Positions 51,968 through 57,260 of a stretch of 64,000 bases of DNA are shown here, piece by piece. A program made the position numbers and the translations under genes. Position 1 is the stretch's first letter. Each line of letters starts with the position of its first letter. Origin of the DNA: Streptomyces sp. DH-12 (lineage in GTDB: Bacteria; Actinomycetota; Actinomycetes; Streptomycetales; Streptomycetaceae); assembly GCF_002899455.1 (NCBI RefSeq), contig NZ_PPFB01000001.1, positions 2,758,501-2,822,500 of the forward strand, in the 5' to 3' direction. The notes under the pieces are model-generated. The model did not search any database, was not told where the DNA came from, and saw only the letters and a list, made by a program, of their open reading frames with translations.

Positions 51968-53327
51968 TCTTCCCCGCAAGGCGGTCACCCGCACCGCCAA
52001 GCTGGCCGCGCTCCCGCTCGGCTTCGCCGGGCGGGCCACCTGGGGACTCGGCAAGCGGATCGTGGGCGAGTCCGCGGAGCTGGTCGGCCGGGAACTCCAG
52101 CAGCGCACCGCCGAGCAGTTGTTCAAGGTGCTCGGCGAGCTCAAGGGCGGCGCCATGAAGTTCGGCCAGGCCCTGTCGGTCTTCGAGTCGGCCCTGCCCG
52201 AGGAGGTCGCCGGTCCCTACCGCGCCGCCCTCACCAAGCTTCAGGAGGCCGCCCCGCCCATGCCGACCCGCGCGGTGCACGGGGTGCTGGAGGAGCGGCT
52301 GGGCGAGGACTGGCAGGAGCTGTTCCAGGAGTTCGACGACAAGCCGGCCGCGGCCGCCTCCATCGGCCAGGTCCACCGGGCGGTGTGGCACGACGGCCGT
52401 GAGGTCGCGGTCAAGGTGCAGTACCCCGGCGCCGGCGAGGCGTTGCTGTCCGACCTCAACCAGCTGAGCCGTTTCGCCCGGCTGCTGGGTCCGCTGGTCC
52501 CCGGCATGGACGTCAAGCCCCTGATCACGGAGCTCAAGGACCGGGTCTCCGAGGAACTGGACTACGGTCTGGAGGCGCAGGCGCAGCGGGCGCACGCCGA
52601 GGAGTTCGCCGGCGACCCCGACGTGGTGGTGCCGGACGTGGTGCACCAGTGCGAGCAGGTGCTGGTCACCGAATGGCTCGACGGCACACCGCTGTCGGAG
52701 ATCATCGCGGACGGCACCGAGCAGCAGCGCGACCGGGCCGGACAGCTCCTGGCCCGCTTCCTGTTCTCCGGTCCCGCCCGGACCGGCCTGCTGCACGCCG
52801 ACCCGCACCCGGGCAACTTCCGTCTGCTGCCCGGAGGTCCTGGTGGCGAGGACGACTGGCGTCTGGGGGTTCTGGACTTCGGCACCGTCGACCGGCTCCC
52901 CGGCGGGCTGCCCGCCCCCATCGGCGAGGCGCTGCGGATGACCCTGGACGGCGAGGCGGAGGCCGTCTACGACATGCTCTGCGCGGAGGGCTTCGTCAAG
53001 GAATCCGTCGAGCTGGACCCCGACGCGGTCCTCGACTATCTCTCGCCGATCATCGAGCCGGCGCGGGTCGAGGCGTTCACCTTCACCCGTGGCTGGATGC
53101 GCGGTCAGGCGGCCCGGATAGCGGACGTCCGGTCCCCGGCCTACCAGTTGGCCAAGCAGCTCAACCTCCCGCCGGCCTATCTGCTGATCCACCGGGTCAC
53201 GTTGAGCACGATCGGTGTGCTGTGCCAGCTCGGGGCGACGGTGCGGCTGCGGGAGGAACTGGAGGACTGGCTGCCGGAGTTCGTCCCCGGGCAGCCGGGC
53301 GAGGAGGAGGAAGCGGCACAGGCCTGA
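51960..53327 (+). CDS. ABC1/UbiB-family atypical kinase
   Basis: A 455-residue ABC1 (ADCK/UbiB) protein. The family N-terminal signature is LGELKGGAMKFGQALS (KxGQ), followed by ASIGQVHRAVWHDGREVAVKVQYPG (Ala-rich loop and ATP Lys), LLHADPHPGNF (catalytic loop) and LGVLDFGTV (DFG). Eukaryotic and E. coli members support isoprenoid quinone biosynthesis; in Streptomyces a lipid or quinone role is likely but unproven. The start overlaps the end of the E1-like gene by eight bp. Confidence 0.9.
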   Translation: MSDLPRKAVTRTAKLAALPLGFAGRATWGLGKRIVGESAELVGRELQQRTAEQLFKVLGELKGGAMKFGQALSVFESALPEEVAGPYRAALTKLQEAAPPMPTRAVHGVLEERLGEDWQELFQEFDDKPAAAASIGQVHRAVWHDGREVAVKVQYPGAGEALLSDLNQLSRFARLLGPLVPGMDVKPLITELKDRVSEELDYGLEAQAQRAHAEEFAGDPDVVVPDVVHQCEQVLVTEWLDGTPLSEIIADGTEQQRDRAGQLLARFLFSGPARTGLLHADPHPGNFRLLPGGPGGEDDWRLGVLDFGTVDRLPGGLPAPIGEALRMTLDGEAEAVYDMLCAEGFVKESVELDPDAVLDYLSPIIEPARVEAFTFTRGWMRGQAARIADVRSPAYQLAKQLNLPPAYLLIHRVTLSTIGVLCQLGATVRLREELEDWLPEFVPGQPGEEEEAAQA

Positions 53328-53375
53328 CCGCGCGCGGGGCCGTCGGGCGCGCGTGAGGCACGGCGGATCTCACCA

Positions 53376-53579
53376 TCACTGGCTGCCGAGGCGTCCCTCG
53401 ATCGCGCGCAGGTCCTCGCGGGAGCAGCGCTCGCAGCATTGCAGGCGGACGCCGTTCTCCACGGAATGGGTCCAGGCCGGCCGGGACCCGTCGGCGCGGA
53501 CGCCGCAGCGGGCGCGCACCGGTGACTCCGGCTCCCCGGCGGAGCCCTCGTCGCCGTCGCCGTCGTGAGGACTGGTCAC
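53376..53579 (-). CDS. Small cysteine-containing hypothetical protein
   Basis: A 67-residue protein with four Cys: one at about 25 (RARCGVRADG) and CCERC at about 48-52. The pattern suggests a small zinc-binding or redox-active protein. It has a charged, acidic N-terminus and an RxxEDLRAIEGRLG tail, and conserved short homologues are remembered in Streptomyces. The GTG at 53579 starts it. It is separated from the wblC operon by a hairpin at 53630-53659 and is convergent with the ABC1 kinase gene. Confidence 0.7.
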   Translation of the reverse strand: MTSPHDGDGDEGSAGEPESPVRARCGVRADGSRPAWTHSVENGVRLQCCERCSREDLRAIEGRLGSQ

Positions 53580-53629
53580 GCGGTGACGACGACCCCGCGC
53601 CGAGCGCGCCGCTCCCTCAACGCACCGCG

Positions 53630-53659
53630 GGGGCCGGTCCGTTCACACGGACCGGCCCC
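53630..53659 (-). terminator. Terminator of the wblC operon
   Basis: GGGGCCGGTCCGT pairs perfectly with ACGGACCGGCCCC over 13 bp with a TCAC loop, 55 bp beyond the end of the small gene that follows wblC. Confidence 0.82.
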
Positions 53660-53713
53660 TGCGGGGAGATCGGGGCCTCCGGCTGGGGAGGCCGTCGCCT
53701 CAGGCGGCGTGCC

Positions 53714-54037
53714 CTACTGCATGACCGCCATGGCGAGCGCCCGGCGGGCGCGCCGCGAGGCGCGCTCGGCCCGGCGCTGCATCCGGCGCGCGGTGAGCAG
53801 ACCGTTGGCCTGCCGCTCCCGGTGCGCCTCCTGCAGTCGGTCGTGCATATGCGCACGAGCCAGGGCTTCTGGGATGAGTTGCATCTCTCGGGTCCTGTTC
53901 TGGCGCGAGTCGTTCGCACCGCTGGTGGTGAAGTCTTCGGTCGCGGAGCCTGCGGGCTCGTGGGTGGACGGCGTCATCGGGGCCTGCTTCTGGGGGTCGT
54001 GCGTGAGGGGGCGGTCGATCGTTCCGAGGGTGTTCAT
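53714..54037 (-). CDS. Small basic hypothetical protein coupled to wblC
   Basis: A 107-residue protein. Its C-terminal half is Arg/Ala-rich and helical (QEAHRERQANGLLTARRMQRR, then RASRRARRALAMAVMQ), and the N-terminal half is polar and Pro/Thr-rich. It could be nucleic-acid-binding or coiled; no family is recognised. The ATG at 54037 overlaps the stop of wblC as ATGA, which supports the full-length start; internal ATGs at 53977 and 53884 are alternatives. It is the second gene of the wblC transcript. Confidence 0.72.
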   Translation of the reverse strand: MNTLGTIDRPLTHDPQKQAPMTPSTHEPAGSATEDFTTSGANDSRQNRTREMQLIPEALARAHMHDRLQEAHRERQANGLLTARRMQRRAERASRRARRALAMAVMQ

Positions 54038-54402
54038 GCCGAGACCGGGTTCTTGCGCGGGCGGCCGCGCGGCCGCTTCCGGGCGACGACAACTCCCTGG
54101 ACGAACAGCTCGCCACCCCAGACGCCCCAGGGCTCACGCCGCTCCTTGGCGCCGGCGAGGCAGGCCTCGACCAGCGGGCAGGTGCGGCAGAGGGACTTGG
54201 CGTACTCGACGTCCGCGGGCGACTCGGCGAAGAAGACCTCCGGGTCGTAGGAGCGGCACGGGACGGGTACGCCGAGGTTCTCGATGGCGTCGTCGAGCGC
54301 GGTGAGCGCGGTGAGCGGAGTCAAGGTCGGGTCCTCCGTGGAGCCGGGCTTGGGGATCGTGTCGGAAGGCGGTACGGACGGGGCGTGCGCTTCGAGTTGC
54401 AC
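54034..54402 (-). CDS. wblC: WhiB7-type antibiotic-resistance regulator WblC
   Basis: A 122-residue WhiB protein. Iron-sulfur ligands are Cys49 (VPCRS), and CRTCPLVEAC supplies three more (CxxCxxxxxC). GVWGG and the C-terminal AT-hook RGRPRKNP identify the WhiB7/WblC subgroup. It is the master activator of intrinsic resistance to ribosome-targeting antibiotics. The GTG at 54402 has GAGGA about nine bases upstream. The stop overlaps the next small gene. A leader of about 590 nt with an ORF and an intrinsic terminator precedes it. Confidence 0.95.
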   Translation of the reverse strand: MQLEAHAPSVPPSDTIPKPGSTEDPTLTPLTALTALDDAIENLGVPVPCRSYDPEVFFAESPADVEYAKSLCRTCPLVEACLAGAKERREPWGVWGGELFVQGVVVARKRPRGRPRKNPVSA

Positions 54403-54491
54403 GGCTGGTCTTCCTCGTCTGGTCGTTTCCGGCCGGTCGGCCGGATGTGCGGCTGGTACCGGGTTCTTTTCTTGTCCCGAGGCGCCTTGTC

Positions 54492-54515
54492 CTGTTTTCC
54501 CGTTCGGGCAAACAG
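54492..54515 (-). promoter_or_regulatory. Second hairpin in the wblC leader
   Basis: On the minus strand CTGTTT with CCCG pairs with CGGG and AAACAG around an AA loop. It immediately follows the main terminator stem and shares its T-rich 3' flank. It may compete with that stem during antitermination (inference). Confidence 0.55.
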
Positions 54516-54516
54516 A

Positions 54517-54551
54517 AGGGCCGCGGATCCCGGATGGGGTTCCGCGGCCCT
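54517..54551 (-). terminator. Intrinsic terminator/attenuator in the wblC leader
   Basis: On the minus strand AGGGCCGCGGA pairs perfectly with TCCGCGGCCCT over 11 bp, followed by TCTGTTT. It lies 115 bp before the wblC start and 21 bp after the leader ORF stop. A strong hairpin in this place, together with an upstream ORF, is the architecture of antibiotic-controlled attenuation described for whiB7-type genes. Confidence 0.8.
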
Positions 54552-54572
54552 GAAGGCGCCGGCCTGAGCGAA

Positions 54573-54890
54573 TCAGGCTGGATCACTCCAGGGTTCTGGC
54601 CCACGGAAGGCCCACATCAGGTGGTGCTGCGTCGTCTGCTTCCGGAATCCGGCACCGGTCGCCGCAAAGGCATAGGCCTGCGCCTGTGCCACTACTGCTG
54701 CTTCCAGTGCCTCGGTCGGTCGCTCATCGCGCTCACGGACGACAAGGCCCGCGGGAGCGACGGAGGACGCCGGACGCACGGCACGGATGCCGGACAGACC
54801 GGTGCCCTGGTTCGAGGCGCCGAGCATGCACAGGGAGACGGCCGAGCGATCGGTCAGTTTGACGCTGGTGCTGATGTTGATGCTGATCAC
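54573..54890 (-). CDS. Leader ORF upstream of wblC (candidate regulatory uORF)
   Basis: A 105-codon frame beginning GTG with AGGAGG eight bases upstream, a very strong ribosome site. Third-position GC is high over the first 65 codons, which supports real translation. The N-terminus is VISINISTSVKLTDRSAVSL; the last codons are WSDPA. An internal ATG at 54617 would encode only 14 residues (MWAFRGPEPWSDPA) but lacks a ribosome site. The stop lies just before the terminator hairpin. Stalling on this ORF by antibiotics could let wblC be transcribed (inference from whiB7 knowledge). No homologous function is recognised. Confidence 0.7.
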   Translation of the reverse strand: MISINISTSVKLTDRSAVSLCMLGASNQGTGLSGIRAVRPASSVAPAGLVVRERDERPTEALEAAVVAQAQAYAFAATGAGFRKQTTQHHLMWAFRGPEPWSDPA

Positions 54891-54999
54891 TGGACTCGCC
54901 TCCTCTCGGCGTCTCAGGGACCGGGCGAACCGGTCCGCGGATATGCAAGTACAACACGGAATCAGGGCCTCCGAGAAGGCCGCTGTCCCCGTGGCTAAG

Positions 55000-55038
55000 A
55001 ACCTATGGGGATTCCCGGGGCATGCGCAAACTATTTTT
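55000..55038 (-). promoter_or_regulatory. Predicted wblC promoter with WblC-type AT-rich element
   Basis: On the minus strand GGAAAAATAG (AT-rich, 55030-55038 core) stands directly before TTGCGC (55029-55024) and, after 18 bp, TAGGTT (55005-55000). A short AT-rich block touching the -35 box is the mark of WhiB7-dependent promoters, so wblC is probably autoactivated. It starts just after the end of uvrD2. Predicted transcription start is about 54993. Confidence 0.68.
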
Positions 55039-55052
55039 CCGACGAGTTCGCG

Positions 55053-57260
55053 TCAGTCCTGATCTTGTCTCTCGGCGGGGTCCCGGCCCGCGCAGAGGGC
55101 CAGCACATCGGCGCCGTAACGGCGCAGCTTGCGCATGCCCACCCCGGGGATGCGGGCCAGTCCGTGCTCGTCCTCGGGGACCGCCTCCGCGATGGCGATC
55201 AGCGTCTTGTCGGTGAAGACGCAGAAGGCCGGCTGGCCGCTGCGCCGCGCCTGCTCGCCGCGCCACTCGCGCAGCCGCTCGTACAGGCCCTCGTCCATGT
55301 CGGAGGGGCAGTCCTCGCAGCGCATCAGTTTCATCTCACCGCCGTCGGTCAGCGTGCGGCCGCAGACCCGGCAGCGGGCGGGGGTGCGCTGCCGGCGGCG
55401 CGGGGCCTGCTCGGGAAGGGCGGCGGCGGCCGTGTAGGAGCCGCGCTCCACTCCTCCCGCGCCTGCCGCGCCCGCACGGCCCGCGACGGCGTGCGAGCCG
55501 GGGCGCAGTCCGGTGAGGAATCGGCTGGGTCGCCGGTTCGGGCGGCCGCCCGGTGAGCGGGAGAGCGCCCAGGAGAGGTGGAGATGCTCGCGGGCGCGGG
55601 TGACGCCCACATAGAGGAGGCGGCGCTCCTCCTCGATCTGCTCGTCGGTCTTCGCGTAGGTGATCGGCATCATGCCCTCGGCGACGCCGACCAGGAAGAC
55701 GACGTCCCACTCCAGGCCCTTGGCCGCGTGCAGCGAGGCGAGGGTGACGCCCTGGACCGTGGGGGCGTGCTGGGCGCCGGCCCGTTCGTCCAGTTCGACG
55801 ACGAGGTCGGCGAGCGTGGCGCCGGCCCGGGCGGCGGCGAAGTCCTGGGCCAGGTGGACCAGGGCGGCCAGGGACTCCCAGCTCTCCCGGACCGCACCCG
55901 AACCGGCGGGCGGCTGGGGCGTCCAGCCCTTGCCCGAGAGCACGGCACGCACCTGGGAGGGCAGGTCGGGTGCGTCGTCGAGCAGCGCGTCGTTGCCGCC
56001 GAAGCGGGCCGCGGCGCGCAGGGCGGTGATCGCGTTGCGCACCTCGGGACGGTCGAAGAACCGATCGGCCCCGCGCAGCTGGTAGGGCACGCCCGCGTCG
56101 GCGAGGGCCTGCTCGTAGGTCTCGGACTGGGAGTTCGTGCGGAACAGGACGGCGATCTCGCTCGCCGGGACGCCCGAGTCGATCAGTTCGCGGATGCGCC
56201 GGGCGGCGCCCTCGGCCTCGGCGGGCTCGTCGGTGTACTCGGTGAAGACCGGGTCGGGTCCCGCGGGGCGCTGGGAGACCAGCTCCAGCCGGTGGTCGGC
56301 GGCGCGGCCCTTCGCCTGGGCGAGCAGCCCGTTGGCCAGGCGGACCACCTGGGGGGTCGAGCGGTAGTCGCGGACGAGTTTGACGACGGTGGCGCCCGGG
56401 TGGCGGACGCGGAAGTCGAGCAGGTGGTCCGGGGTCGCGCCCGTGAAGGAGTAGATGGTCTGGCTGGCGTCGCCGACCACGCACAGGTTCTCCCGGTCGC
56501 CGAGCCACAGCTCCAGCAGGCGCTGCTGGAGAGGGCTGACGTCCTGGTACTCGTCGACGACGAAGTGCTGGTACTGCGCCCTCACCTGCTCGGCGATGTC
56601 GTGCCGGTCCTGGAGGACGGCGACGGTCAGCAGGAGCACGTCCTCGAAGTCGATGACGGAGCGCTCGCGCTTGAGGTCCTCGTAGGCGGCGTAGAGCTGG
56701 GCGATCTCGGCGGGGTCGCGGGGCGCGTCCCGGCCGGCCTTGTCGGCCGCGGCCGTGTAGTCGGCGGGGACGGTCTGGGTGACCTTGGACCACTCGATCT
56801 CGGCGGTGACGTCCCGCAGCTCGCCCCGGTCGAGGCGGATCCGGCAGGCGGCGGCCGCGTCGGCGACCAGCTGGATCTTGCGGTCGACGAGCCGGGGCAG
56901 GGGCCCGCCGACCGCCTTCGGCCAGAAGTACTGGAGCTGGCGCAGGGCCGCGGAGTGGAACGTGCGCGCCTGGACGCCCACGGCGCCGAGCTGGCGCAGC
57001 CGTCCGCGCATCTCCCCCGCCGCGCGGTTGGTGAAGGTGACGGCGAGGACGCTGGAGGGCTGGAGGATCCCGGCGCGCACCCCGTAGGCGATGCGGTGGG
57101 TGATCGCCCTGGTCTTGCCGGTGCCGGCGCCCGCCAGCACGCACACCGGCCCGTGCAGCGCGGTCGCCACGGCGCGCTGCTCGGGGTCGAGGCCTTCGAG
57201 CACCGCGTCGGCCGAGTCCGGTACCCGCGGGAAGAGGGTGGAGTGCGTTGCTGCTGTCAC
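55053..57260 (-). CDS. uvrD2: ATP-dependent DNA helicase UvrD2
   Basis: A 735-residue superfamily 1A helicase. Walker A is AGAGTGKTR (43-51), followed by TFTNRAAGEM (Ia), DEYQDVSPLQQ (II), GDASQTIYSFTGA (III), RDYRSTPQVV (IV), VQGVTLASLHAAKGLEWD (V) and LYVGVTRAREHLHLSWA (VI). A zinc-like tetracysteine region CRVCG and CEDC follows, and the C-terminus is an HRDC domain (PVCxxx-free helical ARIPGVGMRKLRRYG). This is the mycobacterial UvrD2 architecture. The GTG at 57260 was chosen over an upstream ATG for agreement with the helicase core. Its 3' end abuts the wblC promoter. Confidence 0.93.
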   Translation of the reverse strand: MTAATHSTLFPRVPDSADAVLEGLDPEQRAVATALHGPVCVLAGAGTGKTRAITHRIAYGVRAGILQPSSVLAVTFTNRAAGEMRGRLRQLGAVGVQARTFHSAALRQLQYFWPKAVGGPLPRLVDRKIQLVADAAAACRIRLDRGELRDVTAEIEWSKVTQTVPADYTAAADKAGRDAPRDPAEIAQLYAAYEDLKRERSVIDFEDVLLLTVAVLQDRHDIAEQVRAQYQHFVVDEYQDVSPLQQRLLELWLGDRENLCVVGDASQTIYSFTGATPDHLLDFRVRHPGATVVKLVRDYRSTPQVVRLANGLLAQAKGRAADHRLELVSQRPAGPDPVFTEYTDEPAEAEGAARRIRELIDSGVPASEIAVLFRTNSQSETYEQALADAGVPYQLRGADRFFDRPEVRNAITALRAAARFGGNDALLDDAPDLPSQVRAVLSGKGWTPQPPAGSGAVRESWESLAALVHLAQDFAAARAGATLADLVVELDERAGAQHAPTVQGVTLASLHAAKGLEWDVVFLVGVAEGMMPITYAKTDEQIEEERRLLYVGVTRAREHLHLSWALSRSPGGRPNRRPSRFLTGLRPGSHAVAGRAGAAGAGGVERGSYTAAAALPEQAPRRRQRTPARCRVCGRTLTDGGEMKLMRCEDCPSDMDEGLYERLREWRGEQARRSGQPAFCVFTDKTLIAIAEAVPEDEHGLARIPGVGMRKLRRYGADVLALCAGRDPAERQDQD

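Follow-up and report, generated by a model that had tools for sequence, protein, structure and literature searches.

Genes of the whiB7/wblC type are preceded by a long leader that carries an upstream open reading frame (uORF) and a terminator (PMC10727445, PMC11550727, PMC12421871), and ribosome stalling within such leaders leads to an antiterminator that is formed from uORF and terminator sequence, a mechanism for which the same papers cite Lee, Lee & Roe 2022 and Burian & Thompson 2018. In Streptomyces coelicolor, read-through into wblC is reported to be induced by ribosome-targeting antibiotics (PMC11550727, PMC12421871). The corresponding attenuator (Lee, Lee & Roe 2022, doi 10.1111/mmi.14834) belongs to the same gene and the same genus as the locus described here; as described in papers that cite it, translation of the uORF favours the terminator and stalling favours the antiterminator, so that the core is the same and no difference is known. 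The mycobacterial whiB7 leader (Dinan 2014, PMC4128351; Burian & Thompson 2018) likewise places a Shine-Dalgarno (SD) sequence and a uORF ahead of an intrinsic terminator, but it is shorter (approximately 350 nt) and its uORF peptide is unrelated. Amino-acid attenuators of the trp and ilvB1 type (PMC13236596) also allow the position of a ribosome to choose between terminator and antiterminator; their uORFs, however, are short and contain a run of regulatory codons, whereas the wblC uORF is long, contains no run of codons for a regulated amino acid anywhere in its 105 codons, and precedes a gene that encodes a transcription factor.

Because the same mechanism has been stated in print, the core of whiB7/wblC attenuation is already known, and the covarying antiterminator, the class-wide RNA model, the RNA-level constraint on codons and the ‘CGA-CCG/H1’ module described below are refinements of it. 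Neither that module nor class-wide covariation nor an RNA-level codon constraint is mentioned in the papers named above that cite Lee, Lee & Roe 2022; the module, a pause-like element of the Streptomycetaceae, is possibly new.

The window analysed is a stretch of 64,000 nt from Streptomyces sp. DH-12, in which wblC and its leader occupy the minus strand (Table 1). The WhiB gene, the long leader with its SD sequence and uORF, and the terminator lying directly 3' of that uORF are all present, with the AT-hook match of the encoded protein (15.6 bits in the Pfam search) falling just under the cut-off of 17.4. A sequence-only reading had described a 105-codon uORF with AGGAGG at eight bases, a gap of 21 nt and a perfect 11-bp terminator, and this layout is exact to the base: the gap between AGGAGG and the GTG start is exactly 8 nt, that between the uORF stop (which ends at 54573) and the terminator stem (which starts at 54551) is 21 nt, and the stem AGGGCCGCGGA/TCCGCGGCCCT is paired at 11 of 11 positions. 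The second hairpin and the U-rich tail of that description are likewise present, as is its leader of about 590 nt, a length that follows from a transcription start predicted near 54993 on the strength of the promoter motif (55038-55000), which is similar to a WblC site described in PMC7157823. A tiny hairpin around the uORF SD (CGCC-GAGAGGA-GGCG, 54911-54897, minus strand) is nearly invariant across the family. At the other end of the locus lies an open reading frame of 107 amino acids (54037-53714, minus strand), which has no Pfam match; its ATG and the stop codon of wblC overlap (ATGA), an arrangement that suggests translational coupling.

Table 1. Features of the wblC leader and gene (coordinates within the window; MFE in kcal/mol)
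Feature	Position	Strand	Remarks
WblC-type promoter	55038-55000	-	AAAAATAG box plus TTTGCGC-N18-TAGGTT; near-invariant in Streptomyces leaders
Promoter -35, TTGCGC	55029-55024	-	Spacer 18 nt
Promoter -10, TAGGTT	55005-55000	-	
SD sequence AGGAGG	54904-54899	-	From sequence; inside small conserved hairpin 54911-54897 (fold z -3.5); kept in the family
uORF	54890-54573	-	GTG start, 105 codons, TGA stop; read as elongation sensor
CGA-CCG codon pair (codons 57-58)	54722-54717	-	Candidate slow site
Hairpin H1 inside uORF	54711-54651	-	Base GGCACUGG/CCGGUGCC; MFE -36.6, z -4.1
Antiterminator arm 1, UUCCGUGG (codons 95-97)	54608-54601	-	Pairs with CCGCGGAA, 54547-54540
Antiterminator arm 2, CCCUGGAG (codons 100-102)	54593-54586	-	Pairs with CUUCAGGG, 54555-54548; family-invariant core; class covariation p = 2e-5
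Stop-codon hairpin GCCUGA/UCAGGC	54578-54562	-	9 same-branch compensatory events in the family; class covariation p = 2e-5
Shared segment CUUCAGGG-CCGCGGAA	54555-54540	-	Antiterminator 3' strand and terminator 5' arm
Intrinsic terminator stem-loop	54551-54517	-	MFE -30.2, z -5.5; stem invariant across the family
Terminator tail UUCUGUUU	54517-54510	-	U-rich, follows the stem-loop
Second hairpin after terminator	54515-54492	-	z -3.7; some covariation in Streptomyces
wblC (whiB7 orthologue), regulated gene	54402-54034	-	Pfam Whib, 1.8e-14

Conservation of this arrangement was followed in 81 leaders, consisting of the window and the 80 top-ranking wblC relatives from the species collection (all of them Streptomyces). 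Every one of the 81 carries a uORF of 94-119 codons that starts with GTG or ATG. A protein profile of the uORF matches 276 of 298 Streptomycetaceae genomes (12 of 17 genera), almost invariably with a single match per genome, as in the window’s own, and finds essentially no matches beyond that family. At the level of sequence comparison, the combination of uORF and terminator is confirmed as a real, conserved riboregulator rather than a chance arrangement.

The terminator together with the second hairpin folds with an MFE of -39.8 (z -6.3), and none of 200 shuffled sequences is as stable. The second hairpin is found in most Streptomyces, where it might shield the attenuated RNA at its 3' end or provide a back-up for termination. 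The competing structure consists of two antiterminator helices that are contiguous on their 3' strand and enclose the stop-codon hairpin, with the whole fold reaching -37.2 kcal/mol; by folding, terminator and antiterminator are both strong and mutually exclusive. Across 44 distinct family sequences the antiterminator pairs are formed in 98.6% of cells, as against at most 46% when the pairing partner is slid. An antiterminator drawn from both uORF and terminator sequence is therefore indicated by computation and by covariation alike, with the qualification that the terminator and arm 1 are nearly invariant in the Streptomycetaceae and hence show no covariation at that level, so that the family covariation rests on the stop-codon hairpin. 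The helix tests preserved the clade size of each change; a global scan in which substitutions were randomly re-placed lacked power, its null being wider than the data. Other pairings considered in the leader include one of 54806-54798 with 54659-54651 and one of 54656-54649 with 54562-54555, both of which are possible and either lack compensatory changes or fall within the null, and one of the SD region with 54558-54552, which does not exceed the null.

For comparison across the class, a covariance model of the 3' part of the leader was built in which only the terminator and the stop-codon hairpin were set as paired. It matches 144 of 247 genomes, representing 68 of 103 genera, and a gene of the WhiB7/WblC type lies downstream of 39 of the 40 hits examined outside the family (the remaining hit, L214, is not followed by a WhiB gene and was set aside). 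All 39 loci carry a uORF of 59-147 codons with a good SD sequence, and in all 52 leaders compared (39 from the class and 13 from the family) a gap of 21-33 nt separates the end of the uORF from the terminator arm. When uORF ends and terminator heads were permuted among the 39 loci, the native combinations paired more strongly (mean -13.1 versus -11.4 kcal/mol, p = 2e-5), and the stop-codon hairpin gave the same value in the same test (p = 2e-5). The permutation ignores the relatedness of the loci, but a neighbouring control stretch yielded p = 0.44, which argues against relatedness as the cause of the signal. Individual pairings include CCUUUGAG/CUCAAAGG (L189), CCUCGAGG/CCUCGAGG (L205) and CCUGGAGAG/CUCUCCGGG (L208). 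In the class loci L178-L217, outside the Streptomycetaceae, the last residues of the uORF are very often Trp-Ser-Pro-Pro-Val, and a TAG or TGA then lies within the stop-codon hairpin, an ending that appears to follow from the sequences of the antiterminator and of that hairpin. Positions 53000-56500 gave no match to any Rfam covariance model, even with permissive filters and an E-value limit of 1.

The position at which a ribosome would throw this switch was estimated by masked folding, with the ribosome edge set 15 nt past the first P-site nucleotide and the nascent RNA extended to 54530. With the P site at or before codon 90, the pairing probability of arm 1 is 0.82 or higher (0.95 when no ribosome is present); from codon 91 onwards it is at most 0.05, giving a sharp switch at codons 90/91. 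Once the full terminator has been made, equilibrium folding favours it at every ribosome position and no switch is seen; the choice must therefore be kinetic, made during transcription. The choice in the classical trp attenuator is likewise kinetic. Since the antiterminator forms when the ribosome is at or before codon 90, or is absent, any block of elongation should give read-through.

The locus is thus very probably a wblC/whiB7 transcription attenuator that is operated by the position of the ribosome on the uORF. Ribosome-mediated attenuation, which the sequence-only reading had proposed, is supported by the covarying antiterminator, by the modelled switch at codons 90/91 and by the published statements in PMC11550727, PMC12421871 and PMC10727445. 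In the model that follows, in which the co-transcriptional kinetics and the drug response are the inferred parts, polymerase would start at the WblC-type promoter and transcribe the leader while a ribosome translates the uORF. A ribosome that reaches the last 15 codons would cover both antiterminator arms, permitting the terminator to form and transcription to stop near 54510; a stall no later than about codon 90, or a failure to initiate, would allow the antiterminator to form first and polymerase to read through into wblC, whose product probably also activates its own promoter. Roughly the first 90 codons would then sense any block of elongation, and the last 15 would act as the switch.

The possibility that the uORF encodes a small protein with a function of its own, made whenever the leader is transcribed, had also been raised in the sequence-only reading. 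An open frame of some 100 codons and a strong SD sequence are indeed kept throughout the family, and insertions and deletions within it preserve the reading frame. The proposed check of dN/dS across Streptomyces, however, gave 0.86 for the uORF, with wblC at 0.19 and the neighbouring helicase at 0.31 (79 aligned Streptomyces, with a codon alignment for wblC), a value near 1 that speaks against protein-type selection. Constraint as such has not disappeared: rare codons, judged by the usage of 29 open reading frames in the window, account for 25% of the uORF and 5% of those window frames, and at sites where the residue is unchanged they are retained in 90% of cases in the uORF, 67% in wblC and 18% in the helicase. 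The earlier observation that coding bias is present for only about 65 codons is real, and is explained by the rise in rare codons from 16% in the first half to 34% in codons 53-105, where they are themselves conserved. The conserved residues (Glu-Arg-Pro, Gly-Ala-Gly, Ala-Phe-Arg-Gly and Pro-Trp) coincide with RNA elements. The peptide is predicted by AlphaFold2 to be disordered (pLDDT 55.5, pTM 0.12), has no match in Pfam or NCBIfam, and outside the Streptomycetaceae is almost wholly changed or unrecognisable where the RNA module persists. Taken together, the dN/dS value, the frozen synonymous codons, the placement of conserved residues on RNA elements and the lack of a predicted fold make a role for the protein unlikely (indeed very improbable), and argue for a uORF that is constrained as RNA. 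The rare-codon retention in wblC (54402-54034, minus strand) hints at a further RNA-level constraint within that gene.

Attenuators based on drug-specific arrest peptides of the ErmCL type, in which a defined nascent sequence stalls the ribosome in the presence of a given antibiotic, control erm and other resistance genes, and some residues of the wblC uORF are near-invariant, as might be expected of such a peptide. Those residues, however, lie mostly at the end of the uORF, where a stall would mask the antiterminator; the N-terminal and middle portions of the peptide are not conserved across the class, so that no class-wide stalling peptide is found where the RNA switch is conserved, and a response to many classes of drug and to amino-acid starvation is described in the review literature (PMC11550727). 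A drug-specific arrest peptide is accordingly a quite remote explanation, and because a stall anywhere up to about codon 90 would open the switch, the long uORF is read here as a general elongation sensor. Least probable of all is a constitutive terminator that insulates wblC or generates a small RNA with no ribosome-controlled switch: a very stable terminator does lie approximately 115 nt upstream of wblC, but it is downstream of that gene’s own promoter, at a constant distance from the uORF stop, and faces a covarying antiterminator that uses uORF codons.

Within the family, the sensor portion of the uORF contains one further conserved element. Codon 57 is CGA in all 155 Streptomycetaceae uORFs compared and is followed by CCG in 154 of them; the pair also occurs in 8 of the 9 uORFs that were resolved in genomes missed by the protein profile. 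CGA makes up 2% of arginine codons in the open reading frames of the window. Among the tRNA genes, for which 63 of 65 matches were resolved, the arginine anticodons are ACG, CCG, CCU and UCU; no tRNA-Arg(UCG) was found among them, so that CGA should be read by inosine wobble and appears to be decoded only by tRNA-Arg(ACG). Hairpin H1 begins exactly 11 nt downstream of the CGA codon, a geometry that is kept in 154 of the 155 uORFs, and its pairing is preserved beyond expectation (38 unpaired cells, as compared to 94.5 +/- 19.6 in a tree-based null, with 6 same-branch compensatory events). Some divergent genera (L224-L227) retain CGA-CCG without H1 being evident in this form; in the rest of the class, a conserved CGA is absent.

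Ribosome-pausing stem-loops such as those of dnaX and HIV lie 11-12 nt downstream of the first P-site nucleotide; in vitro, on E. coli ribosomes, stem-loops hinder A-site binding only when the P-site codon is that far away (PMC7282821). In yeast, CGA-CCG ranks with the most strongly inhibitory codon pairs (PMC6379720). The spacing of H1 is comparable, but the wblC element differs in that no slippery sequence was identified there, the stem-loop is combined with a candidate slow codon pair within an attenuator, and the pausing is putative. By analogy with these systems, it is tentatively suggested that the Streptomycetaceae uORF might carry a programmed pause, with CGA-CCG in the P site and H1 at the mRNA entry channel. 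Such a pause would determine how the ribosome fares in its race with polymerase, rendering the attenuator responsive to small losses of elongation speed.

The same region also contains a nested reading frame in the +1 register (54726-54694, minus strand), which opens with an ATG (in AATGAGCGACC) followed by AGC GAC CGA, ends at TAG and encodes MSDRPRHWKQQ. It spans 9-12 codons in 93 of the 155 uORFs, mostly in Streptomyces, and it arises through rare codons (AAT for Asn, GTA for Val) whose conservation within that genus is odd. Its reading as a hidden short leader peptide was rejected, since many relatives lack either the ATG or the early stop. A ribosome that slipped into the +1 register at the CGA codon would terminate at the TAG of this frame.

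The regulator WhiB7/WblC governs the intrinsic resistance of actinobacteria, including mycobacteria, to drugs that target the ribosome. The covarying antiterminator and the class-wide model show precisely which bases could be mutated and make it possible to annotate the element. A 105-codon frame that is kept for its RNA and its rare codons, and not for its peptide, can be mistaken for a small-protein gene and serves as a warning for annotation. If the proposed pause is true, the Streptomycetaceae leader would show that in bacteria, too, a conserved pair of slow codons can act as a timing element in gene regulation.
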